The position numbers were made by a program, and so were the translations under genes. Shown here in pieces: positions 10,139 through 53,012 of a stretch of 64,000 nt of DNA. This DNA is from Thalassovita gelatinovora (GTDB lineage: Bacteria; Pseudomonadota; Alphaproteobacteria; Rhodobacterales; Rhodobacteraceae). The notes below the pieces were generated by a model that saw nothing but the letters and a program-made list of their open reading frames with translations, was not told the origin of the DNA and did not search any database. The DNA lies in the NCBI RefSeq assembly GCF_001458355.1, contig NZ_CYSA01000016.1:1-64000 (forward strand), read 5' to 3'. Within the stretch, counting starts at the first letter, position 1. Each line of letters begins with the position of its first letter.

Positions 10139-10209
10139 TTTACTTCGCTTCACATGAAGCGACCCGCAACCCAGGCGCAAAGGCGCGCCGCGAATGAAGG
10201 AGATAGGCC

Positions 10210-10335: not shown

Positions 10336-10356
10336 GTACAGCTTACAAGACTTTTT

Positions 10357-12403: not shown

Positions 12404-12404
12404 C

Positions 12405-13997
12405 CTAGCGCGACATTTCCCTGGTCAACCGCACCATTGTTTGTTGCGACACATAACCGGTCACCGCCAGTCCGGTGGCCTGCTGGAACCCTTTCAACGC
12501 CGTGCGCGTCCGGTCGTCGAAATTCCCATCCACCGGACCGGGATCAAACCCGGTCTGCGACAAGGCCTGCTCCACCATCAGTCGTGAAACCGGGTTGCCC
12601 GCGATCGTGCGCTCCTCGGCCTTGGCCTTTTCTATCGCAGCAAGATCGGCGTTGCGCCGTTCCAATTGGGCAATACGGTCCCTTGCCTCTGCGACATGGC
12701 GGCTGTTGGGAAAAGATTGAACAAAGCCGCGATACGCGGCAATGGTGTTTTGCTGCATAGCGCTGTTCCACGCGGCGGTCTCGGTCCGGTTGCTGTCCAT
12801 TTCGTCCAGTTTTCGCCGCGCCGTTTGGGCATAAACCCCATCGGGAAAGCGATCGAGATAAGCGCGAAGCCCTTCAACGGACCCCAATGCGCCGGTCTGA
12901 TCCCAATACGCGCGATCCTGACGTTCCTGATCTGTCCTGACTTGTGCCGCTTCGCGCTGAATCTGCGCCAGTTGTGGCGCGGTCAGATAGGACGTTTCGG
13001 CATGACCCCGGCTTGTTTGATACCGCGAAATCGCGGCCCGTGTCGCCCTGCCGAAGATACCGTCGGCACCGCCGGTATTGAACCCAAGAATTGTCAGGTC
13101 CCGCTGCAACTGCTGCCGCGCGGCGCGGCTCAACCCCAAAGCGCCTTCTACGGCTTCGGCCTGACGCCGCGGTTCGTCTTCCACCGAATTGATCAATCTT
13201 TGCGCCTCAGTGGCGAACAGTCCTTTCGGAAATCGGTTGAGATAGGCCCGATATGCTTCGGGGCTATCGATATCGCGCACCGCGCTCCAATAAGCCGTAT
13301 CGCCTTGATCGACCGGATCACTGCCGCCCCTGCCAAGCGCAATATCGTTGGGCAGATAGCCCCTAAGCGCCACACCGTCCGGCAGGCTGCGCGCGATCTG
13401 ACCCAGCGGCTGCCGCGCCGCCAGAAGCATATCCCGGATCACCGGTTTGATCGCTTCGGTCGGCCCGGTCAGCACCGCAACACCCTGGGAGGCGGATAAT
13501 TTTCTGGCCCCGACCCGCAATCCCGGCCCGGCCCCTTCACGGCTGCTCCAGGACGGTGCAACCACCAATACCCCATGCCCCTGAAAGGTCCCAAGCAGCC
13601 GGTCAATTTCAGCCAGAGACACCCCGTAACGCCCGGCATTCAGGTTCGACAACCCACGATATTCGCGCCCCAACAGCCAACTGTCGTTGAACGACGCCAC
13701 CACACGCCCGGACAGAAGCACGACAATGCGGTCCACATCACCATCGCTCAGCGTCTGCCGAAACGACTCGATCGAACGGATCATCGTCTCGGTTTTCCAA
13801 TCCTGCCCGCCAAAGACCTGAAACCCGGCCCCTCTCAGCATATTGGCCCATTCGTCATAAGATGCCGATTCCGGCTCCGCAGTGGCGGAATCATAGGATT
13901 TGTTCGACAGGATCAGGGCATAGTCCGCAGCCAGTGCCCCGCCTCCCCACACCAAGGTCGCGGCAACAAGACCAGCAAGACGTATTTTAAAGCGCAT
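12405..13997 (-). CDS. secreted protein with a degenerate caspase-like domain and two peptidoglycan-binding domains
   Basis: The 530-residue protein starts with a signal peptide (RFKIRLAGLVAATLVWGGGALA). Residues 24-230 resemble a caspase/metacaspase (C14) fold. Where active members have a SGH motif it reads VVLLSGRVVASF, and where they have a Cys motif it reads VVAPSWSSREG, so the His-Cys dyad appears lost. Two peptidoglycan-binding-1 domains follow (about 285-345 and 465-528; LTILGFNTGGADGIFGRATR and GFDPGPVDGNFDDRTRTAL). Between them are three repeats of the form AYRAYLNRFPKGLFATEA. A wall-anchored non-catalytic scaffold is my inference. It starts 30 bases after the CoA-ligase gene and may share its transcript. 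Confidence 0.75.
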   Translation of the reverse strand: MRFKIRLAGLVAATLVWGGGALAADYALILSNKSYDSATAEPESASYDEWANMLRGAGFQVFGGQDWKTETMIRSIESFRQTLSDGDVDRIVVLLSGRVVASFNDSWLLGREYRGLSNLNAGRYGVSLAEIDRLLGTFQGHGVLVVAPSWSSREGAGPGLRVGARKLSASQGVAVLTGPTEAIKPVIRDMLLAARQPLGQIARSLPDGVALRGYLPNDIALGRGGSDPVDQGDTAYWSAVRDIDSPEAYRAYLNRFPKGLFATEAQRLINSVEDEPRRQAEAVEGALGLSRAARQQLQRDLTILGFNTGGADGIFGRATRAAISRYQTSRGHAETSYLTAPQLAQIQREAAQVRTDQERQDRAYWDQTGALGSVEGLRAYLDRFPDGVYAQTARRKLDEMDSNRTETAAWNSAMQQNTIAAYRGFVQSFPNSRHVAEARDRIAQLERRNADLAAIEKAKAEERTIAGNPVSRLMVEQALSQTGFDPGPVDGNFDDRTRTALKGFQQATGLAVTGYVSQQTMVRLTREMSR

Positions 13998-14027
13998 GAC
14001 AGACCTCCCTAAGGTTCTGCCCCGAGC

Positions 14028-15248
14028 TTAATCGTACGAACGCTGATCCTCGATCACTTTTCCGTCGTTCGGCAGATCGCCGGGGGCAACCAACTGAATC
14101 TTGCCCTTCATCTTTAGCACATCAACCACCGACGCAGCATAGGCATCGGGCGACTGCGCCTCGGTTTCGATCTGAACCGTCATCGTGTCCATTTCGCCAT
14201 CGCGGCCCGCGATGACACGGGCCTTGACGATATCGGCATGTTTGGCGACCAACTGCGCCACTTGTTCCGGGCGCACGAACATGCCCTTGATCTTGGTGGT
14301 CTGGTCGGCGCGACCCATCCAGCCCTTGATCCGCATATTGGTGCGGCCACAGGGGCTTTGCCCGGCCAAAACCGCGCTCAGATCGCCGGTGGCAAATCGA
14401 ATCAGCGGATAATCGGGATTCAGGGTGGTCACCACCACTTCGCCCACTTCACCGGGTGCGACCGGATCGCCGGTGCCGGGGCGAACGATTTCCACCACCA
14501 CGCTTTCATCGACGATCATACCTTCCATCGCTTCGGTTTCATAAGCGATATTACCCAGATCAGCGGTGGCATAGCTTTGCAGACAAGCAATACCGCGATC
14601 CGCGTATTCCTGCCTCAGTGACGGGAACAAAGCACCGCCGCCCACCGCCGCCTTGGTAATCTTGAGCGCAAGCCCCATCGCTTCGGCCTTGTCAAGAATC
14701 ACCTTCAGGTAATCCGGCGTCCCGCTATAGGCCGTTACGCCCACATCATGGGCCGCACGCGCCTGCAATTCGGTTTGGCCGGTACCGGCCGGCAGCACGG
14801 CTGCGCCAACCGCACGGGCACCACTTTCGAAAATCATCCCTGCCGGAGTCAGATGATAGCCGAAACAGTTCTGTACAATGTCGCCCTTGCCGATGCCGCA
14901 AGCGTTCAAAAACCGCCCCATGCGCCACCAATCGTGTTCGATCCCCCCCGGTTCATAGATCGGACCGGGAGATTGAAAGATATGTGCAAAGCCGCTGGCA
15001 GGTTTCGTGGTTAACCCACCAAACGGGTAATCCGCTTCCTGTGCCCGGCTCAGATCGGATTTACGCAAAACCGGCAAGGTCGCCAGATCTTCAACCGATC
15101 TGATCTTTGCCGCATCGAAACCCTTCAAAGCGTCGCCATAGCCGGGCAATCCCTGCGCCCGCGCGATCTGTTTCGGCAGCGCCACGGTCAGCGCAGCCGC
15201 ACGTTCATCCGCGCTGCGGGTTTCGAGATCGTCAAAGAAACGGCTCAT
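14028..15248 (-). CDS. phenylacetate-CoA-ligase-like AMP-forming enzyme
   Basis: The 406-residue adenylate-forming enzyme resembles PaaK-type ligases: an N-terminal helical region, SGTPDYLKVILDKAEAM, an ATADLGNIAYE block near the adenylate site, VTTLNPDYPLIRFATGDLS, and a small C-terminal domain ending in KVIEDQRSYD. Such enzymes activate aromatic or other carboxylic acids to CoA thioesters. It is the last enzyme of the ABC-transporter operon, which begins with another CoA ligase. The ATG at 15248 is chosen because a GGAGAT site precedes it by 8 bases. No other paa gene is near, so phenylacetate is only one candidate substrate. Confidence 0.85.
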   Translation of the reverse strand: MSRFFDDLETRSADERAAALTVALPKQIARAQGLPGYGDALKGFDAAKIRSVEDLATLPVLRKSDLSRAQEADYPFGGLTTKPASGFAHIFQSPGPIYEPGGIEHDWWRMGRFLNACGIGKGDIVQNCFGYHLTPAGMIFESGARAVGAAVLPAGTGQTELQARAAHDVGVTAYSGTPDYLKVILDKAEAMGLALKITKAAVGGGALFPSLRQEYADRGIACLQSYATADLGNIAYETEAMEGMIVDESVVVEIVRPGTGDPVAPGEVGEVVVTTLNPDYPLIRFATGDLSAVLAGQSPCGRTNMRIKGWMGRADQTTKIKGMFVRPEQVAQLVAKHADIVKARVIAGRDGEMDTMTVQIETEAQSPDAYAASVVDVLKMKGKIQLVAPGDLPNDGKVIEDQRSYD

Positions 15249-15333
15249 AATCAATATCTCCGGAACAGCCCCGGACCTCTCATCCGGTGCAACAGTAAAT
15301 GGGGACGGGCCCCGGGGCCCGACGAAAACTTTC

Positions 15334-16164
15334 TCAGCTCAACCAACGCTTGCGGCGGCGATACGACCGCACATCGCGGAAACTCTTGCGGCCTTCTTCA
15401 GACATGCCGAGGTAGAATTCCTTCACATCCGGATTTTCTCGAAGGTCAGCGGCTGGGCCATCCATCACCACACGGCCGGATTCCAGAATATAACCGTAAT
15501 GGGCAAAGCGCAGCGCCACGTTGGTGTTCTGTTCGGCCAACAGGAAGGTCGCGCCTTCCTTTTCATTGAGATTCTTGACGATATTGAAAATTTCTTCGAC
15601 CAACTGCGGTGCCAGCCCCATAGAAGGTTCATCCAGCAGGATCGTTTCCGGTCGGCTCATGATCGCACGGCCAATTGCCACCATCTGTTGTTCGCCACCC
15701 GAAGTATAACCCGCCTGACTGCGGCGGCGCTCTCTCAGGCGCGGAAAATAATTATAGACCATCTCAAGATCGGCATCGATTGCACCTTTGCCATCCTTGC
15801 GCGTATAGGCACCGGTCATCAGGTTTTCTTCGACGGTCAGGTGCTCAAAGCAATGGCGCCCTTCCATCACCTGGATCACGCCCTTTTGGACCAGATCGGC
15901 CGGGGCCAAGTCCTGCACGCGTTCGCCGCGATAGGTGATACTGCCCTTGGTAACTTCGCCACGCTCCGAGTGCAGCAGGTTCGAAATCGCCTTGAGCGTC
16001 GTGGTCTTGCCTGCTCCGTTCCCGCCCAGAAGCGCGGTAATCCCGCCCTTGGGCACTTTCAGCGACACGCCCTTCAGCACCAGGATAACGTGGTTGTAGA
16101 TCACCTCGATATTGCTGACCTCCAGAAGGGTCTCGTCAGCGGGTCCTGCATCCAGCATCTGCAT
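15334..16164 (-). CDS. LivF-type ABC transporter ATPase
   Basis: The 276-residue branched-chain-type importer ATPase has Walker A GGNGAGKTTT, signature TSGGEQQMVAIGRA and Walker B ILLDEPSMGL, and the LivF hallmark QVMEGRHCFEHLTVEENL. The start at 16164 (MQMLDAGPADET) is preferred; the frame stays open 41 codons further into the hairpin region. It pairs with the LivG-type ATPase of the same operon. The substrate of the importer is not known; the flanking CoA ligases suggest an organic acid. Confidence 0.92.
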   Translation of the reverse strand: MQMLDAGPADETLLEVSNIEVIYNHVILVLKGVSLKVPKGGITALLGGNGAGKTTTLKAISNLLHSERGEVTKGSITYRGERVQDLAPADLVQKGVIQVMEGRHCFEHLTVEENLMTGAYTRKDGKGAIDADLEMVYNYFPRLRERRRSQAGYTSGGEQQMVAIGRAIMSRPETILLDEPSMGLAPQLVEEIFNIVKNLNEKEGATFLLAEQNTNVALRFAHYGYILESGRVVMDGPAADLRENPDVKEFYLGMSEEGRKSFRDVRSYRRRKRWLS

Positions 16165-38755: not shown

Positions 38756-41725
38756 GTGGAACGGAACATCAAATCCCTTATCGTGATGGTCTATCTGCTG
38801 GCGGCTGGCACGTTGATCACGGGCTACCTGATCATTGATGGAATTCTCGACAAGAATTACCGCAACACGCTTTCTGAACGATTGCTGGATGGTTTGCACA
38901 GCACCGAATTCGCGTTGGATTTCTGGGTCGAAGCGCACAAACGCGAAGCCGTGGCAATGGCGAAACTGGATATTGTCCAATCTGCAGCGCATGACCTTTT
39001 GGAAATCCGCAATGATCGCGCTGCGCTGATCGATCATCCGGATCAGCAACGGTTACGTGATTTTTTCGGGCACTACCTGTCCAACGATCATATCGAAGGC
39101 TATTTCCTGATCGCACCGGACGGAACCAGCCTCGCATCGTCCAGGGTCTCCAATACCGGCACATCAAATCTGTTGTTAAAGCAATCGGATCTGTACTTTT
39201 CCGCGCTTGCGGGACAGACGGTCATGACCCGATTGCAGGAATCGGAAGTACCTCTTTCGGATGAAACAACGCCCCGGGGAAACGCCACGCTTTTCGCGCT
39301 GGCTCCGATCAGGCAACAAGACGGTCAGGTAATCGCCTTGTTTGCCTTGCGTCTGTCACCCAGAGCCGAATTGTTCCCTCTGATCGACGGGAAACTGCCC
39401 GGCGCGCAATTGCGGTCATACGCCTTCGATTCCGACGGCAATCTGCTGAGCATGGTCGCCGAAACCGAAAATCCGAATGACCACAACATTTGGAACCAAG
39501 GCGACGCGCGCCCGCTGACCGCCCCCAACGCGACCGATCCAACCGATTTCATCATGCCTGTCCGCGAAGCGTTGCGTGGTGTCGATGGTCTTTCGACAGA
39601 AGGCTATGAAAACTATGCCGGCGTTGAAAACGTCGGGGCCTGGTCCTTCAACGATGCTTTGGGGATGGGCATCGTGACCGAAATCGACAAAAAAAACGCC
39701 TACCAGATGGTCGCGTTTTTCAAAAAACTGACCTTTATCGCCTTCGCCTTGGGGTTGCTGGTGTCGACGCTGGTATTCTTGGCAATGTTGCTCACCACGC
39801 GGCACGCGGACAAACAACGCCGCATGGTGGAATCCGTTTTGTCGGCCACCAAGGACGTCAATCTACTGCTGAATGCCCAAGGCATCATCACCGAGGTTAA
39901 TCCCGCCTTCCGCAATGTCTTCGGACTGGCCCGCGAAGCGGCCATCGGTGAACCCATCACTACATTTGCCGCCCTTTACTCCGATCAGGATTGCGACCTG
40001 TCCCCGCAGGGGTTGAAAACGTTGGGATACGGCGAAACCGACAGGATCCTGCGCGCACGCGGAATTGGCCGGGGCGATAACAATATTCCCATCGGCCTTC
40101 GCGTCGAACGGCTGACCAGCGTAAATCAGGGCGATACCTATCTGGTCGTGATCCACGACTACCGCGACATCGCCAAACGCGAAGCCACGCTGCGCGAAGC
40201 ACTGAACAAAGCGGAAGCCGCCAACCGCACCAAGGCGTCTTTCCTGTCGACCATCAGCCATGAATTGCGTTCGCCGCTGATCAGTGTGATTTCGGCCATC
40301 GAACTGATCGTCGGCCGGGCGACAAATGCCGAGGATCGCAATTTGCTCGACGCCTCACAGCGCTCGGCGCAGCTTCTTCTCGGCACGATTGATGACATTC
40401 TCGATTTTTCCCGAATGGAATCGGGCAATCTCGATCTGAGCAATCAGGATGTCGTGCTGGAAAACGTTCTGGAAAATGTCACCGACACGTTGCGGTGGCA
40501 GGCTTGGAATAACGATGTCAGGCTGATCCCCTATTGCACCCCCGACCTGCCGGTTGTGCAGGCGGACGGGCTGCGGCTGCGGCAAATCCTTGTAAACCTG
40601 ATCGGCAACGCGATCAAATTCAGCGCTCAGATGCCGCGCAATGGCGAAGTGAAAGTGTCAATCCTGCCCGGCATTCGCCACGGTGACACCCAGCAAGTGA
40701 TTTTGCAGGTCCGCGATAACGGCATTGGCATGACGCAGGAAACGATCGACCAGATTTTTCAGCCGTTTACGCAGGCGGACGGATCGATCCGCCGCCATTA
40801 TGGCGGCACCGGGCTGGGATTGGCGTTGACCGACCGGCTGGTTCAACTGATGGACGGAACCATCAGCGTCAGCAGCAACGCCGGGTCCGGATCAACCTTC
40901 GAGGTCAAGATCCCGCTGCGATTTGCCCCGCCCGAACCTGCGGCCCTGCCAATGGATGCTCCGAAACCGCTGGCCGGCAATGCCATTTTGTTCAAGGGTC
41001 GGAATTCGGACATTCGCGACATCGTGCGCAGCTATGTCGAAAGCGCCGGCGCCCTTCTTTTGGAAAACGGTCTGCCACAGGACACCAATCGCGATATCAA
41101 GCCTGACTATGTCATCGTCTACGCTGAAACCGTGGCTGAACTGAAAGAGCTGTCACAAAATGTCGGCGATGTTGCACTGTTGGAAATCGTCAACACGGTG
41201 GAAGACAACGATCAGATCAGCAGCGATAGCCGCATGGCCGTGACGGCGCTGCTTCCCTCGTTGCTGGTCCGCAAACTGACCGATCTGAAATCTAAACCGG
41301 TTCGGAAACCGGCAACGGTCGTGATCCCGCAAAGCAAGGTCTTGCTGATCGAAGACGACAAGATGACCCGCGACATCACCATGCGGATGTTGCAGGAACT
41401 GGGGATCGCCGCCGATGCCGTCGCCAATGGCAAGGAAGGTCTGGAATTGTGGCGCAGCGGAAAATATGCGCTGCTTCTGTCGGATTGCCACATGCCGATC
41501 ATGGACGGGTTCCAGATGGCCGCCTGTATCCGCGACGAGGAAATGAAGCGCAGACTGCCCAAAACCCCCATTGTCGCGGTTTCCGCCGATCTGACGATGG
41601 AAATCGAACAGTTGTGTCAGACCTGTGAAATCAACGAATACATCCCGAAACCGCTGACCCCGGCCAAACTCAAGGCCCTGATGGCCTCTTACGCCTCAAA
41701 CGGCAAAGCCCATCACGATGCCTGA
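38756..41725 (+). CDS. membrane-bound hybrid sensor histidine kinase
   Basis: The 989-residue kinase has a first membrane helix (about 5-27), a roughly 280-residue periplasmic Cache-like sensor domain, a second helix (about 322-345; KKLTFIAFALGLLVSTLVFL), a PAS domain (about 365-480), HisKA with His502 in FLSTISHELRSPL, and an ATPase domain (NLIGNAIKF, DNGIGM, GTGLGLALT). A stretch about 735-855 looks like a degenerate receiver, followed by a true receiver with Asp910 (LLLSDCHMPIMDG). No Hpt domain is fused, so an external Hpt protein is expected. GTG start. Its stop overlaps the convergent ABC gene by 13 bases. Confidence 0.92.
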   Translation: MERNIKSLIVMVYLLAAGTLITGYLIIDGILDKNYRNTLSERLLDGLHSTEFALDFWVEAHKREAVAMAKLDIVQSAAHDLLEIRNDRAALIDHPDQQRLRDFFGHYLSNDHIEGYFLIAPDGTSLASSRVSNTGTSNLLLKQSDLYFSALAGQTVMTRLQESEVPLSDETTPRGNATLFALAPIRQQDGQVIALFALRLSPRAELFPLIDGKLPGAQLRSYAFDSDGNLLSMVAETENPNDHNIWNQGDARPLTAPNATDPTDFIMPVREALRGVDGLSTEGYENYAGVENVGAWSFNDALGMGIVTEIDKKNAYQMVAFFKKLTFIAFALGLLVSTLVFLAMLLTTRHADKQRRMVESVLSATKDVNLLLNAQGIITEVNPAFRNVFGLAREAAIGEPITTFAALYSDQDCDLSPQGLKTLGYGETDRILRARGIGRGDNNIPIGLRVERLTSVNQGDTYLVVIHDYRDIAKREATLREALNKAEAANRTKASFLSTISHELRSPLISVISAIELIVGRATNAEDRNLLDASQRSAQLLLGTIDDILDFSRMESGNLDLSNQDVVLENVLENVTDTLRWQAWNNDVRLIPYCTPDLPVVQADGLRLRQILVNLIGNAIKFSAQMPRNGEVKVSILPGIRHGDTQQVILQVRDNGIGMTQETIDQIFQPFTQADGSIRRHYGGTGLGLALTDRLVQLMDGTISVSSNAGSGSTFEVKIPLRFAPPEPAALPMDAPKPLAGNAILFKGRNSDIRDIVRSYVESAGALLLENGLPQDTNRDIKPDYVIVYAETVAELKELSQNVGDVALLEIVNTVEDNDQISSDSRMAVTALLPSLLVRKLTDLKSKPVRKPATVVIPQSKVLLIEDDKMTRDITMRMLQELGIAADAVANGKEGLELWRSGKYALLLSDCHMPIMDGFQMAACIRDEEMKRRLPKTPIVAVSADLTMEIEQLCQTCEINEYIPKPLTPAKLKALMASYASNGKAHHDA

Positions 41726-43808: not shown

Positions 43809-45512
43809 TCAGAAAAAGATATCCGACAGGTCGTCATCCTCGGTCGCGGCCGATGCGGCTTGCGGTTCGGGGTCCACAATGACCTGTTCGCTGCCCTGTT
43901 TGCCGTTCAGTTCGGCGAACATGATATCGTGGATATTCCGTTCTTCCTGCATCGTGTAGCTGGCGCGGATTTCATCCAGATGCAGCGCAAAGGTTTCCGA
44001 TGTGATCGCATCCGCCAATGGCAGCGGTGCCACCTCGACCGGATCTTGCTGTGCAAGCTGCTCCAGTTCACGGAAGAACGACAAAAAGGTATCCGCGCTC
44101 GACGAAATTGCCTGCGCGATCTGCGGCGCATCATTGGTCAGGCTGGGCAACAGTTTCGCCAGAACTTTTTGCGCCTCGTCCAAGGTCGGGTCGTTTTCAC
44201 CAATCCCTTCGATTTCAGCATCCACCGCGCTGACTTCGCGCGATGCCCATTCGGTCACCCGCTGCTTGGTCATATCCATCGTTTCGGCAAACAGCTCGAA
44301 TGTCACCGGCGCTTCGGAAATCACTTCGTTGATCTGTTGGGAAATCATGATCATATCCATCGCTTCCTTGAAGCCACGGGCACAGGTGATGATCGTATTC
44401 AACGCCGCCAACTGCATCTGAAAGGCGCAGTCCGACAGCGTCTTTGACCGCGCACCCAACGATTCGTCGGCCTCTTGCAGCCGGTGCTGGGCTTTTTCCT
44501 GCGCCTTGGCGCTGGCCGCAAAATCAAACTTGCGGTTGCCACTGTCATGTTCGGCCGGATTAAGCATCCGCGCACTGTCTTCGAAAGAAAATGCGATTTC
44601 CCGGCAGCGGGCCAGAAATTCGTTCTGCCGCCCCGCCAGATCGGCAAACTGACTGCTGGCCTTGCGGGTGTCGGTGACTGCCTCGGTCACGGTCTGCTGC
44701 ATCTGCGCCTTGGCCAGAAGGATCAGGCTGTGACCTTCGGTCGATTGAGCCGGATAAAGCGATGCGCGCCCGGTGATGACCCGCACATGTTCAGCCCGTT
44801 GTCGGCTGCGGTCACCGACCTGAAGCGCCGAAATGACCTCGGACACATCGCGTTCGGCGACGGCGACGAATTCGGACAGCCACGCAGACGCAGACTGGGC
44901 TGCGGTCATGCCCTGTTCCAGCGCACCCAATGCCGTTTCCAGCGCCCGCGCCCGAGGTTTCAAAGTCGAAAACAGGGCCTTTGCGCGTTGTTCGACATTG
45001 CCGCCCATATCTTCAGTCGCGGCAACGATGCTGTCGATCACATCGAACATTTCATTCACCAGACCCGAGGCGTCACTGGAAATATCCGACAGGCTTTCGG
45101 CCAGCCGCACCAACTGACTGCCCAAGGGCCGATGCCGGTGGCCCTGCGCAATGATCCGCGCGTTCAGTGACACGATATTCGACGACTGGATGATCTTGGA
45201 CAATTCTCGCAATGTCATCGACATCTTGCGGCTGTTGTCGCGCAGGTCCTGCACGAACGCCTTGGCATCGCCGCTGTTGCGGTCGATTTCGTCCATCAAC
45301 TCGGCAACACCCTGCATACGTTGGTGGATCAAGGTTAAATTGGCCGGTTCCAACAACCGATCCAGATCGGCCACGCCTTCGCGCAGCTTCTTGGTGGTGT
45401 CGAAGGCAAAAAACAACTTATCCAGAATGTCGCTCAGAACACTTTCTATGCGCAAAAACGGGCCATCATTCAGACCGTGCGCATCCACTGGTACCATACG
45501 AAATTCTTTCAT
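43809..45512 (-). CDS. large soluble chemotaxis-associated coiled-coil protein with CheZ-like features
   Basis: The 567-residue protein has no membrane helix and is almost wholly helical. Two segments resemble the MCP signalling tip (SSNIVSLNARIIAQG near 111 and QMQLAALNTIITCARG near 366). Between them LQVGDRSRQRAEHV (about 231-244) has the D-x-x-x-Q spacing of the CheZ catalytic site followed by EHV. The last nine residues, DDDLSDIFF, are like the CheY-binding tail of CheZ (VDDLLDSLGF). The ATG lies 4 bases after the cheB stop, next to a GAAAGGG site. I do not know a named family; a phospho-CheY phosphatase is a hypothesis. Confidence 0.7.
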   Translation of the reverse strand: MKEFRMVPVDAHGLNDGPFLRIESVLSDILDKLFFAFDTTKKLREGVADLDRLLEPANLTLIHQRMQGVAELMDEIDRNSGDAKAFVQDLRDNSRKMSMTLRELSKIIQSSNIVSLNARIIAQGHRHRPLGSQLVRLAESLSDISSDASGLVNEMFDVIDSIVAATEDMGGNVEQRAKALFSTLKPRARALETALGALEQGMTAAQSASAWLSEFVAVAERDVSEVISALQVGDRSRQRAEHVRVITGRASLYPAQSTEGHSLILLAKAQMQQTVTEAVTDTRKASSQFADLAGRQNEFLARCREIAFSFEDSARMLNPAEHDSGNRKFDFAASAKAQEKAQHRLQEADESLGARSKTLSDCAFQMQLAALNTIITCARGFKEAMDMIMISQQINEVISEAPVTFELFAETMDMTKQRVTEWASREVSAVDAEIEGIGENDPTLDEAQKVLAKLLPSLTNDAPQIAQAISSSADTFLSFFRELEQLAQQDPVEVAPLPLADAITSETFALHLDEIRASYTMQEERNIHDIMFAELNGKQGSEQVIVDPEPQAASAATEDDDLSDIFF

Positions 45513-45516
45513 CACA

Positions 45517-46656
45517 CTACCCTTTCAGAGCAACTCTGGCCAAGTGCTCAGCATCAAAACTCATGATCTGCGACGCGATCTTGGACAAATGCACGGCGCT
45601 TTGTGCCGCCCCGCGTTCCACGGCTTCGCGGGGCATGCCATAGACGACGCAACTTTCTTCGTTCTGCGCCAAGGTCGATGCCCCGGCTTGGCGCATTTCC
45701 AGCAGACATTGCGCCCCGTCATCGCCCATCCCGGTCATGATCACGCCCTGCGCATTCGCACCGGCGGAAATAGACAGCGACCGGAACAGGACATCGACCG
45801 ATGGCTTGTGCCGTGACACCGGCGGCCCTTCGATGACCCGGCAGGTATAGGCCCGGCCGGTGCGTTCGATCGTGATATGGTGACTGCCCGGCGCGACCAG
45901 CGCCAGACCACGTTCCATTTTGTCACCGTCACGCGCTTCGCGCACGGTGATGGCACACAGCTTGTTGAGCCGGTTCGCAAAAGCTTCGGTGAATTTTTCC
46001 GGCATATGCTGGACGATCGCGATTGGCGGGCAGTCTACCGGCAATTCCTTCAACACTTTGGCCAAAGCCTCGGTGCCACCGGTCGACGCACCGATGCCGA
46101 TGATCGGCGGCGTTTTGACCACGGCCGGTGCGTTCGGATTGCGGGCCGGCATGATTACATCGGGGGATTGTTTCTTCTGTGGGCTGAAATCGCGCACGGT
46201 GCGTTTCGGCTTTGCCCTAGATTTCGGGCTGATCCGCGCCTGCGACGCAGCACGCACCGCGTGACAAACCCGCTGGGTGCCTTCGTCATCCTTGGACAAC
46301 GCACCGACATCCGCTTTTGACAGCACTTCGACCGCACCCATTTCCAGCGCCTTCATCGACGCCGCCGATCCCTGCTGGGTATGATTGGAACAGATCACCA
46401 CCGGGATAGGATGCTGCGCCATGATCCGGCGCAGAAAGGTCAGCCCGTCCATACGCGGCATTTCCACATCCAACAGGATCACGTCGGGCAGCGCCTTGCG
46501 CATCTTTTCGGCGGCATCAAACGGATCACGGGCCATATCGACCACCCGCAGATCGGGCGCGGTTTCGACCATGTGTTTCAACATGGTGCGGGCGGTCAGA
46601 GAATCTTCGACGATCATCACGCGCACCTGATCGTGCGGGGTCACATGTGCATTCAT
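45517..46656 (-). CDS. cheB: CheB, receptor methylesterase/deamidase
   Basis: The 379-residue protein has a receiver domain (phosphoacceptor in VILLDVEMPRMDG) joined by a basic linker (about 145-180) to the esterase domain. The triad is Ser in GIGASTGGTEAL, His in IVQHMPEKFT and Asp in MTGMGDDGAQCL. It removes methyl groups from receptors to reset sensitivity. The start overlaps the cheR stop (TGATG). A GTG one codon earlier is an alternative start. Confidence 0.95.
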   Translation of the reverse strand: MNAHVTPHDQVRVMIVEDSLTARTMLKHMVETAPDLRVVDMARDPFDAAEKMRKALPDVILLDVEMPRMDGLTFLRRIMAQHPIPVVICSNHTQQGSAASMKALEMGAVEVLSKADVGALSKDDEGTQRVCHAVRAASQARISPKSRAKPKRTVRDFSPQKKQSPDVIMPARNPNAPAVVKTPPIIGIGASTGGTEALAKVLKELPVDCPPIAIVQHMPEKFTEAFANRLNKLCAITVREARDGDKMERGLALVAPGSHHITIERTGRAYTCRVIEGPPVSRHKPSVDVLFRSLSISAGANAQGVIMTGMGDDGAQCLLEMRQAGASTLAQNEESCVVYGMPREAVERGAAQSAVHLSKIASQIMSFDAEHLARVALKG

Positions 46657-47492
46657 CACTGTACCTCTTTACGGAACGCGGCGGCAGCGCATTGGGTCAG
46701 CCTAGGGTCGGTCACGACCGCAGATTCGGAATGGCCCACAAACAGATAGCCCCCCGGGCGCACATGGTCGGCAATGTTCGACACGACCTTTTTCTGCATC
46801 GCTTCGTCGAAATAGATCAAAACATTGCGCAAGAAGATCACGTCCATGTTTCGATCTACGGGATATTTCGGGCCGGTCAGGTTCATCTGGGCAAACACCA
46901 CCTTGTCGCGCAGGCTTTGCACGATACGTGCCAGTTCCCGACCGTTGCTGGAATGGCCCATTTCCATGTATTGATCCTGCATCGATTGCGGAATATCGAC
47001 CAGTTCCTCGCGGGTATAAACCGCTTGGCGCGCCTTGGTCACAACGGTGCTGGAAATATCGGTGCCCAGGATCGAATACTGGAAGCCCGGATTGCGCTTG
47101 GCATGTTCGGCGAAAGTCATTGCCGCAGTATAGGCTTCTTCGCCGCTCGAACTTGCCGCGCTCCAGAATTTGAAACTGCGCGTCGCCGGATGGTTGGGAA
47201 GGATGTGTTTTTCCATAAACCCGAAATGCGCTTTTTCGCGGAAAAAGTCGGTCTTGTTGGTGGTCAGAACATCAATGATATGCGGCAACTCGCTTTGCAA
47301 ATGGCCATCGTCAAACACCATCTTCAGATAGGTGCGGATGTCCGGCACACCGACCGCCCGAATGCGTTTTCGCAACCGGCCTTCGATCATGGTCGATTTG
47401 TTTTCGGGCAACTGAATGCCCGTTTTCTCGGTCACGATGGCGCAAAGTTTCGCGCGCAGTTCTCGGTCAGCAGCAATGATGGGTGACGACAT
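46656..47492 (-). CDS. cheR: CheR, receptor methyltransferase
   Basis: The 278-residue SAM-dependent enzyme has the CheR N-terminal helical domain (VTEKTGIQLPENKSTMIEGR) and catalytic domain (FWSAASSSGEEAYTAAMTFA; ILGTDISSTVVTKARQAVYT; FLRNVLIYFD). It methylates glutamates on MCPs. It lies between cheW and cheB in a tightly packed operon. Confidence 0.95.
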   Translation of the reverse strand: MSSPIIAADRELRAKLCAIVTEKTGIQLPENKSTMIEGRLRKRIRAVGVPDIRTYLKMVFDDGHLQSELPHIIDVLTTNKTDFFREKAHFGFMEKHILPNHPATRSFKFWSAASSSGEEAYTAAMTFAEHAKRNPGFQYSILGTDISSTVVTKARQAVYTREELVDIPQSMQDQYMEMGHSSNGRELARIVQSLRDKVVFAQMNLTGPKYPVDRNMDVIFLRNVLIYFDEAMQKKVVSNIADHVRPGGYLFVGHSESAVVTDPRLTQCAAAAFRKEVQ

Positions 47493-47513: not shown

Positions 47514-48029
47514 TTATAGCTGCGCCTCAGCCTCTTCGGGGGTCTGGTGAAATTCCGCGATCACCTTCGAACTCAGCATCCGGTCAAGATCGAGAACGGT
47601 CACGAAATCGCCGTTGCGGCGACCGACACCTTCGACCATGCGGGTGTCCCAGTTCAGCAACCCGTCCTGGGCAAAGGTCTGCAATTTGTCATCGTCCAGG
47701 CGGGTCACTTCGAAAACCTGATCGGCGCGCAGGCCGACGGGCATTTCGGAACCGCCGTTTCGAACCGACAGAACCACGATCCGGGTTTCCGGGGTATCTT
47801 CCTTGTAGGGTCGCGCCAGCAACAGGCGCAGATCGACGACCAGAATACTTTCGCCGCGCAGGTCGATATAGCCCAGCAGAAAATCAGGCGCTTGCGGCAA
47901 TCTGGTGGCCGGTTTTGGGTCAAGGATTTCCACCACCCGCGAAACCGGCAGGGCGACGCATTCCTCGCCGAGGCGACAGGTCAGAAAGGTCTTTTGGATT
48001 TCATCGGTCATGTGCTGCTGATCAAGCAT
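47514..48029 (-). CDS. cheW: CheW, chemotaxis coupling protein (copy 1)
   Basis: The 171-residue protein is a CheW-type SH3-like fold: FLTCRLGEECVALPVSRVVE, PDFLLGYIDLRGESILVVDL and GVGRRNGDFVTVLDLDRML. It links receptors to CheA. The ATG at 48029 has AGGA 8 bases before it; the ATG at 48038, three codons earlier, has that site almost touching it and is less likely. Two CheW copies are common in roseobacter che operons. Confidence 0.92.
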   Translation of the reverse strand: MLDQQHMTDEIQKTFLTCRLGEECVALPVSRVVEILDPKPATRLPQAPDFLLGYIDLRGESILVVDLRLLLARPYKEDTPETRIVVLSVRNGGSEMPVGLRADQVFEVTRLDDDKLQTFAQDGLLNWDTRMVEGVGRRNGDFVTVLDLDRMLSSKVIAEFHQTPEEAEAQL

Positions 48030-48126
48030 GTTCGGCATCCTGTTTCACGGTTTGAAGAGCTGCGGCACACATCACTTCGGTAATGGGCCGTGCGGTTGCT
48101 ATTGTTCGAAAGGCCGGATCGCGCAT
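48022..48126 (-). CDS. possible 34-codon ORF in the gap between the two cheW genes
   Basis: The 98-base gap between the two cheW genes is open from an ATG (MRDPAFRTIATARPITEVMC) to a TGA that overlaps the start region of cheW copy 1. A GAGG lies 9 bases before the ATG, which is 10 bases after the previous stop. It could serve only to carry ribosomes across the gap. Evidence is limited to position and ribosome site. Confidence 0.25.
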   Translation of the reverse strand: MRDPAFRTIATARPITEVMCAAALQTVKQDAEHA

Positions 48127-48136: not shown

Positions 48137-48637
48137 TCACGCTGCGGCATCATCGGCATGGGCCGCGCCGATGTATTCCTGTGCGACGCGTTCCAGATCG
48201 ATCAGATTGACGAAACGGTCCTGCCAGCGGCCGATGCCCTTGATGGTCTGCGCCGGCCAACGGGTACCGACAGACGGCACCGGCTGCACCGTTGCAGGGT
48301 CCATCGACATCACCGCATGCACCTTTTCGGCAATCAATCCGATGGTGACCGGGCCCGACGCCAAAGCCAATTCCAGAACCACGATCCGCGTGTCGATGTC
48401 GAACGGTTTGTCCTGCATATCGAACAAGGGCCGCAAATCCGTCACCGGTACGACCACGCCGCGCACGTTCATCAACCCGGCGGAATAAACCCCGGCCAGC
48501 GGCACCCGGGTGATCCGGGGCGGTTCCAGCACTTCGCGCAGGATGCGGGTCGGTACGGCCATCAATTCGCCGCCCATTTCGAAGGCCACCAGATCCTTCA
48601 GTTCATCTTCGGTGGCGGATACCAATGACAGGCTCAT
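48137..48637 (-). CDS. cheW: CheW-type coupling protein (copy 2)
   Basis: The 166-residue CheW-fold protein has LVAFEMGGELMAVPTRILRE, GLMNVRGVVVPVTDLRPLF and GIGRWQDRFVNLIDLERV. It is clearly different in sequence from copy 1, so the two may serve different receptors or array positions. Its start overlaps the cheA stop by 4 bases. The alanine-rich acidic tail (AAHADDAAA) is unlike copy 1. Confidence 0.92.
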   Translation of the reverse strand: MSLSLVSATEDELKDLVAFEMGGELMAVPTRILREVLEPPRITRVPLAGVYSAGLMNVRGVVVPVTDLRPLFDMQDKPFDIDTRIVVLELALASGPVTIGLIAEKVHAVMSMDPATVQPVPSVGTRWPAQTIKGIGRWQDRFVNLIDLERVAQEYIGAAHADDAAA

Positions 48638-50619
48638 GCTGCTTGCTCCTTGTCCAGATTGCCCAGCCCCTGAGACCGGACCAGTTGCGCCACATCGATA
48701 ATCAGCGCGACATCGCCATCGCCCAGAATGGTGGCACCCGAAAACACGTTCAGACGGCTGTGGATCGGCGACAGTTGCTTGATGACGGTCTGGTAGGACC
48801 CGATGATCCGATCAACCGCCAGTCCGACCTGGGTGTCGCCGGTTTCCACCAGAACCACCTTGGGATGCTCGTTCACCGGCCCCGAACACCCAAACACTTC
48901 GCGCAGGCGCATGATCGAAACCAATTTCTCGCGCAATTCGATCACAGTTGTCGGCTCGGACCCTTTGCGCAGATCGTCGGGCTGTTCCAGAATGCCCCCC
49001 ACCGCAGCCAGCGGAATGGTGAACCGTTCATCCCCGACCTGCATCAGCAGCCCTTCGATGATCGCCAAAGTCAGCGGCAGCCGCAGGGTAAAAGTCGATC
49101 CGGCACCCAGTTCGGATTCGATTTCCACCGATCCGCGTAGCGCCTCCACCGTCGATTTGACCACGTCGGTGCCAACCCCGCGCCCGGACAGATCGGTGAT
49201 CTGCTCGGCGGTAGAAAACCCCGGCTCCATCAGCAGCGCAAAGGTTTCGCTGCGGGTCAGAATGGTATTTTCCGCGATCAGGCCACGCTCGACGGCGCGC
49301 TGACGAATGAAATCGGGGTCCAGCCCCTTGCCGTCATCCTTCACGCTGATCAGGACATCGGCACCGGAATAGCGCGCGCTCAACGTGACAGTACCGCGTT
49401 CGGCCTTGCCCGCGGCAATCCGGGTTTCGCTGTTTTCCAGACCGTGATCCACTGCGTTGCGCAGAATGTGAACCAAAGGATCGGACAGTTTTTCGATCAC
49501 CGTCTTGTCCAATTCGGTGGTTTCGCCTTCGATGACGAAATCGAAATCCTTGCCGGTCTTGCCCGCCAGATCATGCGCCAGACGCTGGAACCGTCCGGTG
49601 ATACTCGACATCGGGGTCAACCGGATCGCCATCGTGGTATCGCGCAAGCCAAGCGCCAGACGCTGAATGTTTTCCACCACTTCCATCAGATCGGGATTTT
49701 CCAGCTTCGCCGCCAGATCCGACAACCGCGCCTCGGCGATCACCAATTCGCCGACGCGGTCCATGATATCGTCCAACCGTTCGGCAGAAACCCGCATCTG
49801 CACCTTGGCGGTGCCCGGCTTCTTGGCCGCTTGGCTCGCCTGTTGCTGATCGGTCGATGTCTTGGTTTCGGTCGGTGTTGCGGGCGTGATTTCCCCCCCA
49901 GCAGGCTGATCGGCAAGGATCGGTTCCAGCGACAGTTCCATCTGATCCTCGTGGAACATGAACACGTCGCGAATATCGGATTCAGACGCCTCCGCCGGCA
50001 GCGTCACCTGCCATCCGGTATGCATTTCCGACGGCTTTAGATCGGCCAATGCGGGCAATTTGTCGGTCAATGCCTCGACCACGGTGCCTTCCCCGCCGAT
50101 TTCGATCAACTCGTCCAGCATCGCAATCGGGTTGCCGCCGATTTCCATGAAATCCGGGGGCAGTTTGAAAATCAGCTTCCACCCCTCGACTTCGCCTTCC
50201 ACATGCGCCGCTTCGGCTGGCGCATCCGATTGCGTCACCGCCGCGGCTTCGCCTTTGGTGACGGCCGTCAAAGCCGCTTTCAGCTCGGCATCGCGGTCTG
50301 CCGGGGGGTCTTCACCGTCCAGCAGCGCCACGATCAAGTCATAGGCTTTCAAAGACACCTCGACCAGTTCGGGGGTAACGGTGGCATTGCCGGACCGCAC
50401 CGCTTCGAACGCGGCTTCGAAATCGTGAATGAATTCGGCCAGACGGGCATAGCCGAACATCGCGCCGGTGCCTTTGAGCGTGTGCAGATCGCGAAACACC
50501 TGCGTCACCAGTTCGGCATCGTCGGGGGTCTTGTTCAGCTCCAGCAGCGCATCCTGAAGACTTTCAATCAGCGCCTCGGTTTCCTGACGGAATATCTCTT
50601 GGGTTTCTGCATCAATCAT
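48634..50619 (-). CDS. cheA: CheA, chemotaxis histidine kinase
   Basis: The 661-residue kinase has an N-terminal Hpt domain with phosphorylatable His46 (VFRDLHTLKGTGAMFG), a variable linker without a clear standard P2, a dimerisation domain (RLDDIMDRVGELVIAEARL), ATPase motifs (HILRNAVDHGLE, KDDGKGLD, SGRGVGTDVVKSTVEALRG) and a C-terminal CheW-like domain ending near GDVALIIDVAQLVRSQG. It passes phosphate to CheY and CheB. Its ATG overlaps the cheY stop by one base. Confidence 0.96.
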   Translation of the reverse strand: MIDAETQEIFRQETEALIESLQDALLELNKTPDDAELVTQVFRDLHTLKGTGAMFGYARLAEFIHDFEAAFEAVRSGNATVTPELVEVSLKAYDLIVALLDGEDPPADRDAELKAALTAVTKGEAAAVTQSDAPAEAAHVEGEVEGWKLIFKLPPDFMEIGGNPIAMLDELIEIGGEGTVVEALTDKLPALADLKPSEMHTGWQVTLPAEASESDIRDVFMFHEDQMELSLEPILADQPAGGEITPATPTETKTSTDQQQASQAAKKPGTAKVQMRVSAERLDDIMDRVGELVIAEARLSDLAAKLENPDLMEVVENIQRLALGLRDTTMAIRLTPMSSITGRFQRLAHDLAGKTGKDFDFVIEGETTELDKTVIEKLSDPLVHILRNAVDHGLENSETRIAAGKAERGTVTLSARYSGADVLISVKDDGKGLDPDFIRQRAVERGLIAENTILTRSETFALLMEPGFSTAEQITDLSGRGVGTDVVKSTVEALRGSVEIESELGAGSTFTLRLPLTLAIIEGLLMQVGDERFTIPLAAVGGILEQPDDLRKGSEPTTVIELREKLVSIMRLREVFGCSGPVNEHPKVVLVETGDTQVGLAVDRIIGSYQTVIKQLSPIHSRLNVFSGATILGDGDVALIIDVAQLVRSQGLGNLDKEQAA

Positions 50620-50984
50620 CAGCCGACCACCTTATTCACAACAGCCAGCAGCTTGGCCTGTTCAAACGGTTTCATGATCCAGCCCAGCGCCCCCGCCGAT
50701 CGCGCCTGATCCTTCAGGTTACCTTCGCTTTCGGTCGACAGGAAAATAATCGGAACACCGCTGCTGCTGGGGTCGCTCCGATAGGCCTGAATGAATTCGA
50801 TGCCGGTCATGTTGGGCATGTTCTGGTCGGTGATGACCATGTCGAAGCGTTTGGCCTTGGCTGTTTCCAACCCCTGCGCACCGTCTTCGCATTGCGTCAC
50901 TTCGAACCCTTCTTGCTGCAACGTCATTGCGACCATGCGCCGGACAGAAGGGGAATCGTCGATAATCAGGATGTCTTTGCTCAT
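50619..50984 (-). CDS. cheY: CheY-type single-domain response regulator
   Basis: The 121-residue receiver has acidic residues in IIDDSPSVRRMV, phosphoacceptor Asp in MVITDQNMPNMTG, Thr/Ser in IIFLSTES and Lys in IMKPFEQAKL. The position just before cheA indicates the chemotaxis output regulator that binds the flagellar switch. No flagellar genes are in the window. Confidence 0.94.
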   Translation of the reverse strand: MSKDILIIDDSPSVRRMVAMTLQQEGFEVTQCEDGAQGLETAKAKRFDMVITDQNMPNMTGIEFIQAYRSDPSSSGVPIIFLSTESEGNLKDQARSAGALGWIMKPFEQAKLLAVVNKVVG

Positions 50985-51010: not shown

Positions 51011-51307
51011 TTATACTGTTTCGGTCAAAACGGGCCCCAATCCCGTCTGCGCCAACATGGCGCTGAACGGGACATTTGCTTCGGCCAGATCGGCCAGATT
51101 TTCCCGGCTCACGCGGTTTTCCTTGCCAGCGGCGGCCAGCAACTGACCGAATGCGAACACTACCGATGGCGGCGCATCTTCGGTCAGATCCAGCTCAAGC
51201 TCTGCCGTTTTTCCCTCGGGTAGGCAGACAAGCGCGTCGCGGAACGGCACCAGCGTTTCGAACGTGCTGGCGCTATCCAGGGTGATCTGCAGGGCCGTAT
51301 CGGGCAT
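51011..51307 (-). CDS. small STAS-like protein of the chemotaxis operon
   Basis: The 98-residue protein (starts MPDTALQITLDSASTFE) resembles STAS/anti-sigma-antagonist-like proteins in length and pattern, with LECLP-type strand LVCLPEGKTAELELDLTED and a helix VVFAFGQLLAAAGKE. A STAS-type gene at this place, between mcp and cheY, is seen in other alphaproteobacterial che operons. AAGGA lies 8 bases before the ATG; a much longer open frame upstream lacks support. Confidence 0.7.
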   Translation of the reverse strand: MPDTALQITLDSASTFETLVPFRDALVCLPEGKTAELELDLTEDAPPSVVFAFGQLLAAAGKENRVSRENLADLAEANVPFSAMLAQTGLGPVLTETV

Positions 51308-51383
51308 TGAATGTTCCTTGTCATGTTCATTGCGTGAGTAGGGAACCCGGCGGGGGAACAGGATGCCTTCGCCGGGCAATTGT

Positions 51384-53012
51384 TTACGAAGCGATTTTGA
51401 AATCGGCAGCGTCCTTGCCGCTTTCGCCTTCGTCTCCGAGATAAATGTCGGTGCCTTGCGCATCTTCGCCGCCTGCGTCCACCGCGTCGTGCGACACGGT
51501 GCGTTCGTCGATCTGGAAGAAGGAAATCACTTCGGCCAACTGTTCCGCCTGGCTCGACAATTCGGTTGCCGCGCTCGACATTTCTTCCGAAGCCGAAGTG
51601 TTTTCCTGCGTTACGCTGTCCAACCGCTGAACAGATTCACTGATCTGGGTCGACCCGATCGCCAATTCGCGCGACGATGCGGTGATGTCGCTGACCAAAG
51701 ACGATGTCTTTTCGATATTGGGCACCAACTTTTTCAACATCTCACCCGCTCGGGTCGCCGATGTGACAGTATTCGCGGACAGCGCAGAAATCTCGGCTGC
51801 GGCGAGTTGGCTGTTTTCGGCCAGTTTGCGCACTTCCGAAGCCACCACGGCAAACCCACGACCATGTTCGCCGGCGCGCGCCGCCTCAACGGCGGCGTTC
51901 AGCGCCAACAGATCGGTCTGGCGGGCAATTTCCTGCAAAACCATGATCCGTTCACCGATGGTCTTCATGGCGTCAACCGCTTCGGACACCGCATCACCGG
52001 AAATCTGCGCATCGCTCGCGGCTCTGGTGGCGATTTCCTCGGTCATCGTGGCATTGTCCGAACTGGCGCTGATATTGGCCGACATTTCTTCGACCGCCGA
52101 TGAAACTTCTTCGGTCGACCCGGCCTGTACCGATGCCCCTTCGGACAGCGATTCCGAAGTCGAAGCCATCTGGTTGGCCCCCGCCGCCAGATTGCGAACG
52201 GCCGAAGCGACGTTTTCAACGGTATCGCGCAGACGCAGAACCATATCGTTCTGCACGTTCAGCAAATCGCTGATTTCGTTATTGCCCGTGACATTCGCGG
52301 TTTCACGCAGATCGCCTTCGGCCACTCGGCGGGCCAATTCGATCGACCGCTTGAACCCCGAAGAGATACTGCGCAGGATCAGCAGTGCCGACAATCCGCT
52401 AACCGCAAAGGCAATGGCCACCAGAACGGACATGTTGCGCACCGTTTCTGACAACGCCGCCGTGGCACTGTCTACTTCGGTCTGCATGCCTGCATTCACC
52501 GTTTCGGTCAGGCCGCCCAACACATCCAGCGCCGCGCGCGTCGCATCGCGGGATCCGTTATGGTACAGGATCGTCGCTGCCCGAGCCTTTCCCTTTGATC
52601 CGCTCTGACTGTATTCCAGCGATGTCTGGTTGGTTTCATAGGCAAGGTCATGCATCGTCTGTAGCTGTGACAGCGATTCCTGGGTTTGCTCATCGACAGA
52701 CGCCTGAAGATCACTCACCAAACCGTTATAGACCCCGTTCAGCCGGTCGATTTCCTTCATCATGCCCGGAATGCGTTCGGGTTCCCCGGTCGGCAAGGGG
52801 ATCAGGATTTCGGAAACAACACTTCGCAACGCGCTTTCGGTGGCCGCGATTTTCTCGATGGTGTTCACCTTGGCCATCTCGACATTCACCACCCGGTCGA
52901 AGGTCGCGTTGGCTTTGCGCATTTCGCTGACCGCGAAATACATGCTGCCAGCGAACATGCTCAATATGAAAAGAAAGGTCAGGGCCAATCGGGCCTTGAG
53001 TGTGAACCGCAT
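51384..53012 (-). CDS. methyl-accepting chemotaxis protein
   Basis: The 542-residue receptor has a first membrane helix ([20 protein letters not shown]), a four-helix-bundle periplasmic domain (about 30-185), a second helix ([20 protein letters not shown]), HAMP (about 212-265) and a cytoplasmic signalling domain with tip [20 protein letters not shown]. Methylation-type Glu/Gln pairs flank it. It heads the chemotaxis operon, so it may be its main input. No C-terminal CheR-docking pentapeptide is seen. Confidence 0.95.

Follow-up and report, generated by a model that had tools for sequence, protein, structure and literature searches.

The last gene of a chemotaxis (che) operon in a 64,000-nucleotide stretch of Thalassovita gelatinovora DNA (contig NZ_CYSA01000016.1, positions 1 to 64,000; hereafter the window) encodes a TlpC-family protein built on two degenerate receptor hairpins. 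A Q-D-Q residue set and an acidic C-terminal tail are conserved in this family, and its genes are linked to che operons. Judged from sequence, it is plausible, at about even strength for and against, that the window TlpC could serve as an array-anchored phosphatase for phosphorylated CheY (CheY-P) carried on a receptor scaffold. TlpC is a known, functionally obscure family; the new point is a conserved CheZ-like pair of aspartate and glutamine common to TlpC and McpA-like receptors.

The Q-x-x-D-x-x-x-Q-R motif is conserved in the TlpC family

The motif Q231-x-x-D234-x-x-x-Q238-R239 (44796..44822, minus strand) lies with its aspartate 117 residues past N117 of the first hairpin. The initial annotation had pointed to the string GDRSRQRAEHV with the D-x-x-x-Q spacing of CheZ, and this is present, with D234 and Q238 as the pair (numbered from the ATG). 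The string alone was ruled out as evidence, since such a D...Q occurs four times in the window TlpC (at 234, 361, 413 and 547) and 2.67 times on average in 2000 shuffles of the same composition; the motif exceeds chance because of its conservation, not because of the string itself. Q231, D234, Q238 and R239, together with Phe as the last residue, are kept in 29/29 family sequences (the window protein included), even at identities as low as about 15%; R237, G233 and the motif flanks are variable. The loss of DxxxQ among orthologues, raised beforehand as a possible refutation, is therefore not seen. In the A3 alignment (26 rows, 15-77% identical to the window TlpC), only nine columns are invariant, namely L33, Q231, D234, Q238, R239, N372, Y519, E524 and R525.

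The motif did not serve as a search pattern in assembling the 29 sequences, although the profile contains it among its 560 positions. The set comprises the window protein, 8 relatives from a whole-protein search of 101 genomes and 20 found by searching 390 genomes of the order with a profile. The former search matched 10 genomes, its own included, and L010 (an ordinary PAS-containing methyl-accepting chemotaxis protein, MCP) and L004 (a near copy of L003) were dropped. The latter matched 202 genomes at E<=0.001, mostly at MCP tips, with 24 matches in 19 genomes below E 1e-30; weaker hits were read as hits to MCP tips, but L145 and L146 were kept because they reach the end of the profile. The near-identical pairs L131/L132, L137/L138 and L139/L140 were counted separately in the 29 and singly in A3. 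The motif also occurs in all 99 non-identical family open reading frames (ORFs), 75 of which came from a motif-selecting scan. Since that scan used the motif as its pattern, motif conservation in the 80 loci that it found in the genome contig collection was rejected as proof, and these loci were counted for context and tails only. The conservation argument is carried by the unselected sets, these 29/29 and 8/8 loci of a single-hairpin class described below.

Family membership and known TlpC proteins

By gene order and homology, the window protein is a member of the TlpC family. The cheOp2 operon of Rhodobacter (Cereibacter) sphaeroides runs cheY3, cheA2, cheW2, cheW3, cheR2, cheB1, tlpC (PMC7277832), and the published TlpC length is 580 amino acids (PMC3964821). 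In Cereibacter and kin (L013, L026, L028 and L037), the homologue ends a cheY-cheA-cheW-cheW-cheR-cheB order, the cheY of L028 lying off the contig, and the Cereibacter-type homologues L013 and L028 are 580 amino acids long. The protein was filed as TlpC because the cheOp2 gene order matches and the length of L013 and L028 equals the published one. Homology of the window TlpC to the members in Cereibacter-type cheOp2 operons (L008/L013, L026, L028, L037) extends over the full length. It resembles R. sphaeroides TlpC in the position of its gene after cheB, in having no transmembrane segment and in its full-length match, by the family hidden Markov model (HMM), to the Cereibacter-type members; the latter, however, are only about 24-26% identical to it, and the likeness is drawn through these relatives and gene order. 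The nearest named relative found was from Thalassovita aquimarina (Rhodobacterales, 76%).

A cheB gene lies at most 400 nucleotides upstream on the same strand in 63 of 75 relatives from the genome contig collection. Within the genus, TlpC was present in 6/6 members with the CheA orthologue of this operon and in 0/3 without it (one of the three being 83% complete). A single-protein scan of the genome contig collection with the window TlpC gave no relatives, and a plasmid search with the window protein gave no match. In L015 and L047, a second paralogue lies between receptors, upstream of a cheY-cheA cluster, and by context could be TlpS of cheOp1. Two TlpC-family copies occur in genomes G059 (L013/L015), G346 (L128/L129), G393, G435 and G191 (L137/L139, L138/L140 and L142/L144); in the first two, one copy follows cheB and the other is TlpS-like between receptors, and in the last three the copies sit in two separate operons, each after a cheB.

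Two-hybrid assays with R. sphaeroides TlpC showed contacts with CheW4, with CheA3 and of TlpC with itself, and its deletion makes the cytoplasmic cluster diffuse (PMC6829392). It has also been proposed as a possible controller of CheA4 (PMC10924463). The passages on TlpC in the literature consulted mention neither QxxDxxxQ nor the tail.

Two degenerate receptor hairpins

The claim of two MCP-tip-like segments in this protein held up well. The first degenerate hairpin tip spans residues 100-140 (45093..45215, minus strand) with IVSLNARIIA and N117, and the second spans residues 355-405 (44298..44450, minus strand) with N372. The second half of the family profile from A3 matched solved MCP signalling domains tip on tip in an hmmsearch of PDB (2ch7, E 1.2e-14). 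Between tip and motif (173 columns), hhalign aligned hairpin 1 with 13 single-hairpin proteins carrying DxxxQ (P 97.5%, E 8e-12), placing N117 on their tip Asn; a comparison of profile A4 (the N-terminal half) with profile A5 of the single-hairpin DxxxQ MCPs gave P 98.0% and E 1.8e-13. The two hairpins also match each other (P 94%, E 1.1e-7), with N117 on N372. The MCP signalling domain PF00015 had no match in the window protein and matched 7/26 family members at E<=1 (best 4e-4).

Motif Asp follows tip Asn by 115 residues in 12 of the 13 single-hairpin proteins and by 117 in the window TlpC, where the pair stands at 117/121, and a single alignment column holds the motif Asp of 27/27 first hairpins and 34/34 single-hairpin proteins. 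From the motif to the YTMxxER block there are 43 residues in the single-hairpin L214 and L227, and 273-305 in TlpC; the approximately 240 extra residues of TlpC are therefore the second hairpin.

The acidic tail and the YTMxxER block

Near the C-terminus, the block YTMQEER (residues 519-525, 43938..43958, minus strand; Y519, E524 and R525 invariant in A3) precedes a linker that is variable in the alignment (residues 536-555, 43848..43907, minus strand) and an acidic tail ending in Phe, ATEDDDLSDIFF (43812..43847, minus strand), whose terminal Phe is the one kept in 29/29. An acidic-hydrophobic-F tail occurs in 67/76 family ORFs and in 0/881 other long ORFs from the same loci. Among MCPs, it was found in 21/22 with the motif and 0/14 without, in a sample partly chosen by motif. 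Bradyrhizobium TlpC tails (ADDGIELF) match those of the single-hairpin class. The initial annotation likened ATEDDDLSDIFF to the CheZ tail, and this stands in part: this member shares DDLxD with CheZ and the tail is conserved, but the likeness is loose, others ending in GIELF, DVFF and so on. One relative, the TlpC of Mesorhizobium liriopis (L049, 6891-8987), keeps the motif and YTMxxER without the acidic-F tail and is either truncated or diverged.

A single-hairpin class with the same pair

The search of 240 alphaproteobacteria with A4 matched 42 genomes at E<=0.001, and the 19 ORFs read were 2 more TlpC (L212, L213), the 13 single-hairpin proteins and 4 ordinary MCPs (L225, L226, L229, L233). 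The 13 have 353-535 amino acids, an intact MCP tip, then an LQFQDRxxQRLEHV-like block and a C-terminal [IV]-[ED]-[LM]-F. Scanning 299 genomes of the phylum with a DNA pattern gave matches in 41, many in chance frames, and 11 MCP-like members were found among the 30 loci read. Nine of these came from genomes outside the taxonomic class and have 360-415 amino acids, motifs of LQFQDR type and C-termini like DDITFF; judging by their operon types and by named relatives on plasmids, these genomes are taken as gammaproteobacteria. As the 10 F9-style loci were found by the DNA motif pattern, they were rejected as proof of conservation.

An A5 profile search of 20 hand-picked genomes of the phylum gave 30 loci, of which L305, L310 and L313 were unreadable. 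In all eight F7-type loci, none of them pattern-found, the D and Q stand at +115 and +119 from the tip Asn in varied surroundings (LQFQDMSSQ, LQFEDLTYQ, LQFADIIVQ, LQFGDINAQ); 10 other loci with the pair were pattern-found, and the pair is present in 0/9 readable lower-scoring MCPs. Over 31 single-hairpin sequences (21 not pattern-found), the sole columns conserved to at least 95% between +60 and +130 are Q112, D115 and Q119 (30/31), the one miss being L235 with a one-residue shift.

The 22 loci fetched for this widespread class (7 of the 13 alphaproteobacterial members, 5 F9-style, 8 F7-type and 2 plasmids) belong without exception to che operons: cheB immediately precedes 7 of them, cheY immediately follows 13, and in 2 a single gene intervenes; an automatic flag marked 21 of them, and L281 was recognised by an earlier match. 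The CheZ HMM found nothing in these neighbourhoods beyond the single-hairpin proteins, and a PDB search with the class gave, among the 22 sequences listed, MCPs and unrelated coiled coils and no CheZ. On both plasmids the order is 'methyl-accepting chemotaxis protein' - response regulator - STAS - CheA - MCP - CheW - CheR - CheD; the operon of Pseudomonas sp. HR96 (L314, NZ_CP139142.1) extends through CheB, and that of Aeromonas sp. BC14 (L315, NZ_CP102455.1), shown up to CheD, has a further MCP. L273 (G835:C1:4832000-4851900) holds two tandem che operons, both opening with a DxxxQ MCP of the single-hairpin kind ahead of cheY, STAS and cheA, the second being cut by the stretch. This cheY-STAS-cheA type resembles the Vibrio cholerae cluster I/F9 setting of VC1394. 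The topology of VC1394 is McpA-like (PMC7534058).

Stage-1 F7 operons end in cheR-cheD-cheB-mcpA-like-anti-sigma antagonist-serine phosphatase, the last three standing at the front in stage 2, and cheZ occurs in stages 1-2 only in F6 systems (PMC7184735). McpA-like receptors are dispensable for the F7 array and co-evolve with F7; their C-terminus is highly conserved, without the CheR pentapeptide, and its role is called 'important yet unclear' (PMC7184735). Several F7-type tails found here read GEVELF. McpA-like receptors (CttP/PA0180, VCA1088) resemble the proteins described here in the MCP tip, the D/Q at 115/119, the tails GEVELF/GDIDFF and the position after cheB (stage 1) or at the front before cheY-cheA (stage 2). 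They have one intact hairpin and a predicted membrane segment (PMC7184735), whereas TlpC has two degenerate hairpins. The label McpA-like for the loci here rests on gene order and tail. By the features of this class, the window TlpC has the tip in degenerate form, the pair at 117/121 and the acidic-F tail, and it lacks the single canonical hairpin.

Comparison with CheZ

No Pfam match to CheZ, CheX or CheC (PF04344, PF13690, PF04509) was found at E<=0.001 in the whole genome. The remark in the initial annotation that alphaproteobacteria usually lack cheZ was too strong, CheZ being above the Pfam cut-off in 90/240 genomes sampled. Many of the alphaproteobacterial CheZ proteins read (loci L147-L194, L176 and L189 being left out) end in an SQ-x-[DE]-[IV]-D-x-[LI]-type peptide.

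TlpC and CheZ (PF04344) are alike in a DxxxQ on a helix, a linker and an acidic-hydrophobic C-terminal peptide, but TlpC is built on receptor hairpins instead of the CheZ hairpin and has no AXXFQ, which precedes DXXXQ in the CheZ active-site block (PMC7750401). In L145 (QFHD) and L146 (QYSD), the aromatic residue alone of AXXFQ is kept; [FY]QD is present in 23/24 single-hairpin proteins and less in the F7 type. In the best local hhalign alignment between TlpC and CheZ (score 28.5, P-value 0.011), D234/Q238 are matched to the CheZ pair; CheZ was not among the best 25 of 106 families for the 26 A3 members. By sequence, TlpC is not a CheZ, and 'CheZ' is unsupported as a family label. For 24 single-hairpin proteins against 45 CheZ, the comparison gave P 84% and E 7e-6 with D/Q in register, the match-column score being 45.1 vs 27.0 for the reversed control and at most 29.0 over 100 shuffles. 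At E<1e-3, the CheZ HMM matched 4/32 single-hairpin proteins, 0/24 ordinary MCPs and 0/32 reversed sequences, and 1/32 with the pair masked. The link suggested from TlpC through McpA-like proteins to the CheZ helix is transitive, with a weak last step, and a CheZ-like site that arose convergently within a receptor bundle would account for the data as well as descent does.

Proposed function and alternative explanations

With its two tandem degenerate MCP hairpins, TlpC is a cytoplasmic receptor-like protein, and this scaffold would keep it in the chemoreceptor array via receptor-type contacts with CheW/CheA. Hairpin 1 would present Asp234 and Gln238 on one helix, and the acidic-aromatic tail on its variable linker could capture CheY-P. 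In the likeliest mechanism, D234/Q238 would then reach into the active site of CheY and accelerate hydrolysis in the manner of CheZ Asp143/Gln147, so that the signal would be ended at the array. The initial annotation had said that a CheY-P phosphatase or sink on a receptor-like scaffold would be new. Besides the profile similarity of the single-hairpin class to CheZ, points in favour are the che-operon context, the co-occurrence of TlpC with the CheA orthologue in the genus and the lack of CheZ, CheX and CheC matches in the genome. The D/Q pair and tail, conserved far beyond chance, and the receptor-like scaffold favour the proposal in part, but the protein belongs to the TlpC family and is not an unknown. 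Our results raise the further possibility, tentative and somewhat more doubtful than assured, that TlpC/TlpS, the single-hairpin McpA-like proteins and the F9-style 'chemoreceptors' form one family of receptor-scaffold CheY-P phosphatases, joining the array but ending the signal instead of sensing and supplying the missing termination enzyme of cheY-without-cheZ operons, and that the CheZ catalytic helix may be related to this receptor helix.

Several results weigh against a phosphatase. The profile comparison of TlpC with CheZ, envisaged at the outset as a check, yielded no direct match better than controls (match-column score 21.1, 23.1 when reversed, shuffles up to 31.4), and direct homology was rejected; 0/29 TlpC match the CheZ HMM built here at E<0.05, and the F and Q before the CheZ aspartate are V and G in the window TlpC (LQVGD). 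Against the 12 full-length non-alphaproteobacterial CheZ alone, the single-hairpin score falls to 26.9, with shuffles up to 26.5. In the hairpin tree, hairpin 2 (support 0.97) and not the single-hairpin class is the partner of hairpin 1, which could reflect either internal duplication or long-branch attraction. The terminal F is absent in 4/75 relatives, L041, L047 and L053 ending in Leu and L049 having no tail. A strict replacement of CheZ is ruled out, since G471 and G479 carry both TlpC and CheZ. Overproduced Shewanella McpA has the effects of other MCPs, and swimming is no different once it is deleted (PMC9855816); R. sphaeroides TlpC is the sole cheOp2 product placed in the cytoplasmic cluster (PMC10924463). 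CheA3 of R. sphaeroides already dephosphorylates CheY6-P, a CheA3-like protein is also present in this genome, and in modelling a CheY6 sink explains the turnover of CheY3/4 (PMC2924250).

The weightiest alternative is that TlpC has no enzymatic activity and acts as an array component or cytoplasmic receptor, in which QxxDxxxQ serves as a structural or docking element for CheA/CheW or inter-dimer contact. The literature indeed treats TlpC as a receptor-like array protein (PMC6829392, PMC10924463). Its MCP homology is strong and its CheZ homology weak, and the Q at -3 is as conserved as the D and Q, whereas the CheZ read here have D, G, N, S or T there. CheA and CheW bind MCPs at the tip region. 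The pair, however, lies about 115 residues from the tip, outside that region, is missing from 9/9 of the readable lower-scoring MCPs and travels with the acidic-F tail, and we regard this explanation as rather unlikely, though not to be dismissed. A CheY-P binder or sink without catalysis, its tail docking CheY-P and its D/Q site holding it so as to buffer the signal or bring CheY to CheA, would suit the fact that the tail is the more CheZ-like docking feature and is kept in members with changed D/Q surroundings, but a protein that only binds would have no need to conserve D and Q at a fixed distance, which makes this improbable.

It is very improbable that the tail is an adaptation-enzyme tether (like NWETF for CheR/CheB) with an unrelated role for D/Q. 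A C-terminal Phe on a variable linker and a gene often adjoining cheB would agree with it, but the observed tails depart from -x-[HFYW]-x(2)-[HFYW]. P. aeruginosa McpA has valine at the second position of its pentapeptide, the change at that position reportedly prevents binding to all four CheRs, and the motif occurs in 0/39 other McpA-like proteins (PMC7184735); on these pentapeptide data, a CheR tether was rejected. That the motif arose by coincidence within a coiled coil hardly deserves credence: the 2.67 D...Q expected per shuffled protein would allow it, but the 29/29 conservation and the fixed spacing in the wider class already refute chance.

In the open-access literature searched, as far as its passages were available, no paper assigning a DxxxQ site or a phosphatase role to TlpC or McpA-like receptors was found. 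The conserved pair makes questions about the function of TlpC and McpA-like proteins testable by two point mutations. If the phosphatase reading is true, a phosphatase would be supplied for R. sphaeroides regulators other than CheY6, genes annotated as 'methyl-accepting chemotaxis protein', such as the two named plasmid examples, would be signal-termination enzymes instead of sensors, and models of receptor-to-array signalling would need revision. It would also bear on the puzzling co-evolution of McpA-like receptors with F7 systems (PMC7184735).

Known phosphatases and the second che cluster

CheA3 of R. sphaeroides is an array-bound, CheA-derived CheY6-P phosphatase (PMC10542144), and no phosphatase has been identified for the chemotaxis regulators of this species except CheY6 (PMC2924250). 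The genome of the window has a second che cluster adjoining fliG/fliF (L241, C28:122000-141000), with a CheA4-like kinase without Hpt (5782-6996), an MCP with HAMP-type domains in the TlpT position (9791-11218) and a 1374-residue Hpt...CheW CheA3-like protein (11734-15855). The presence of this CheA4/TlpT/CheA3-like cluster therefore indicates an R. sphaeroides-type two-cluster system; the likeness to CheA3 lies in a CheY6-P phosphatase acting in the same kind of system, with a CheA3/CheA4-like pair in this genome. The CheA3 middle region as a relative of TlpC was rejected, since the CheA3-like protein of this genome has neither a significant match to the TlpC, DxxxQ-MCP or CheZ HMM nor QxxDxxxQ.

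CheT of Sinorhizobium meliloti is reported to be CheZ-like by AlphaFold and active on one CheY-P; it resembles TlpC as a DXXXQ protein from an alphaproteobacterial che operon but, compared by its description, differs in being in complex with CheR and in having no significant homology to known chemotaxis proteins (PMC12654446). In HisKA_3 kinases (DesK/NarX), the phosphatase glutamine on a helical bundle places the attacking water, which has been compared with CheZ (PMC5231405); it is part of the kinase DHp domain, and the likeness is one of mechanism only.

The gene, its operon and the window

The TlpC-family gene (43812..45512, minus strand) encodes 567 amino acids from its ATG, with the stop at 43809-43811; the minus-strand ORF 43809-45515 has 568 if the alternative GTG at 45515 is used. 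It had been described as the last gene of the che operon with 567 residues, and the ORF is indeed intact and follows cheB. The protein has no transmembrane segment (highest 19-residue hydropathy 1.10) and no HAMP, its MCP tip is degenerate, and an all-helical nature is plausible from its sequence. Pfam and NCBIfam names on it (XPC-binding, SepF, MCE and others) were all below cut-off and were discarded.

The operon, entirely on the minus strand, begins with an MCP (51384..53012; matches to 4HB sensor and HAMP) and an ORF without Pfam match (51011..51463), followed by cheY, the presumed substrate (50619..50984; Response_reg, E 8.5e-29), cheA (48634..50619; Hpt, dimerisation, ATPase and CheW domains), two cheW genes (48137..48637 and 47514..48038), cheR (46656..47492) and cheB (45517..46659; CheB_methylest and Response_reg), which lies directly upstream of the TlpC-family ORF; cheW, cheR and cheB were assigned by Pfam. 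The ORF at 51011-51463, between the MCP and cheY, stands where a STAS gene is found in related operons of other classes, and may be a degenerate STAS domain. In a scan for promoters and terminators, the number of sites was not above that in shuffles. Near the operon, on the plus strand, lies a hybrid histidine kinase (38756-41725) with a weak dCache and with PAS, HisKA, HATPase and receiver domains.

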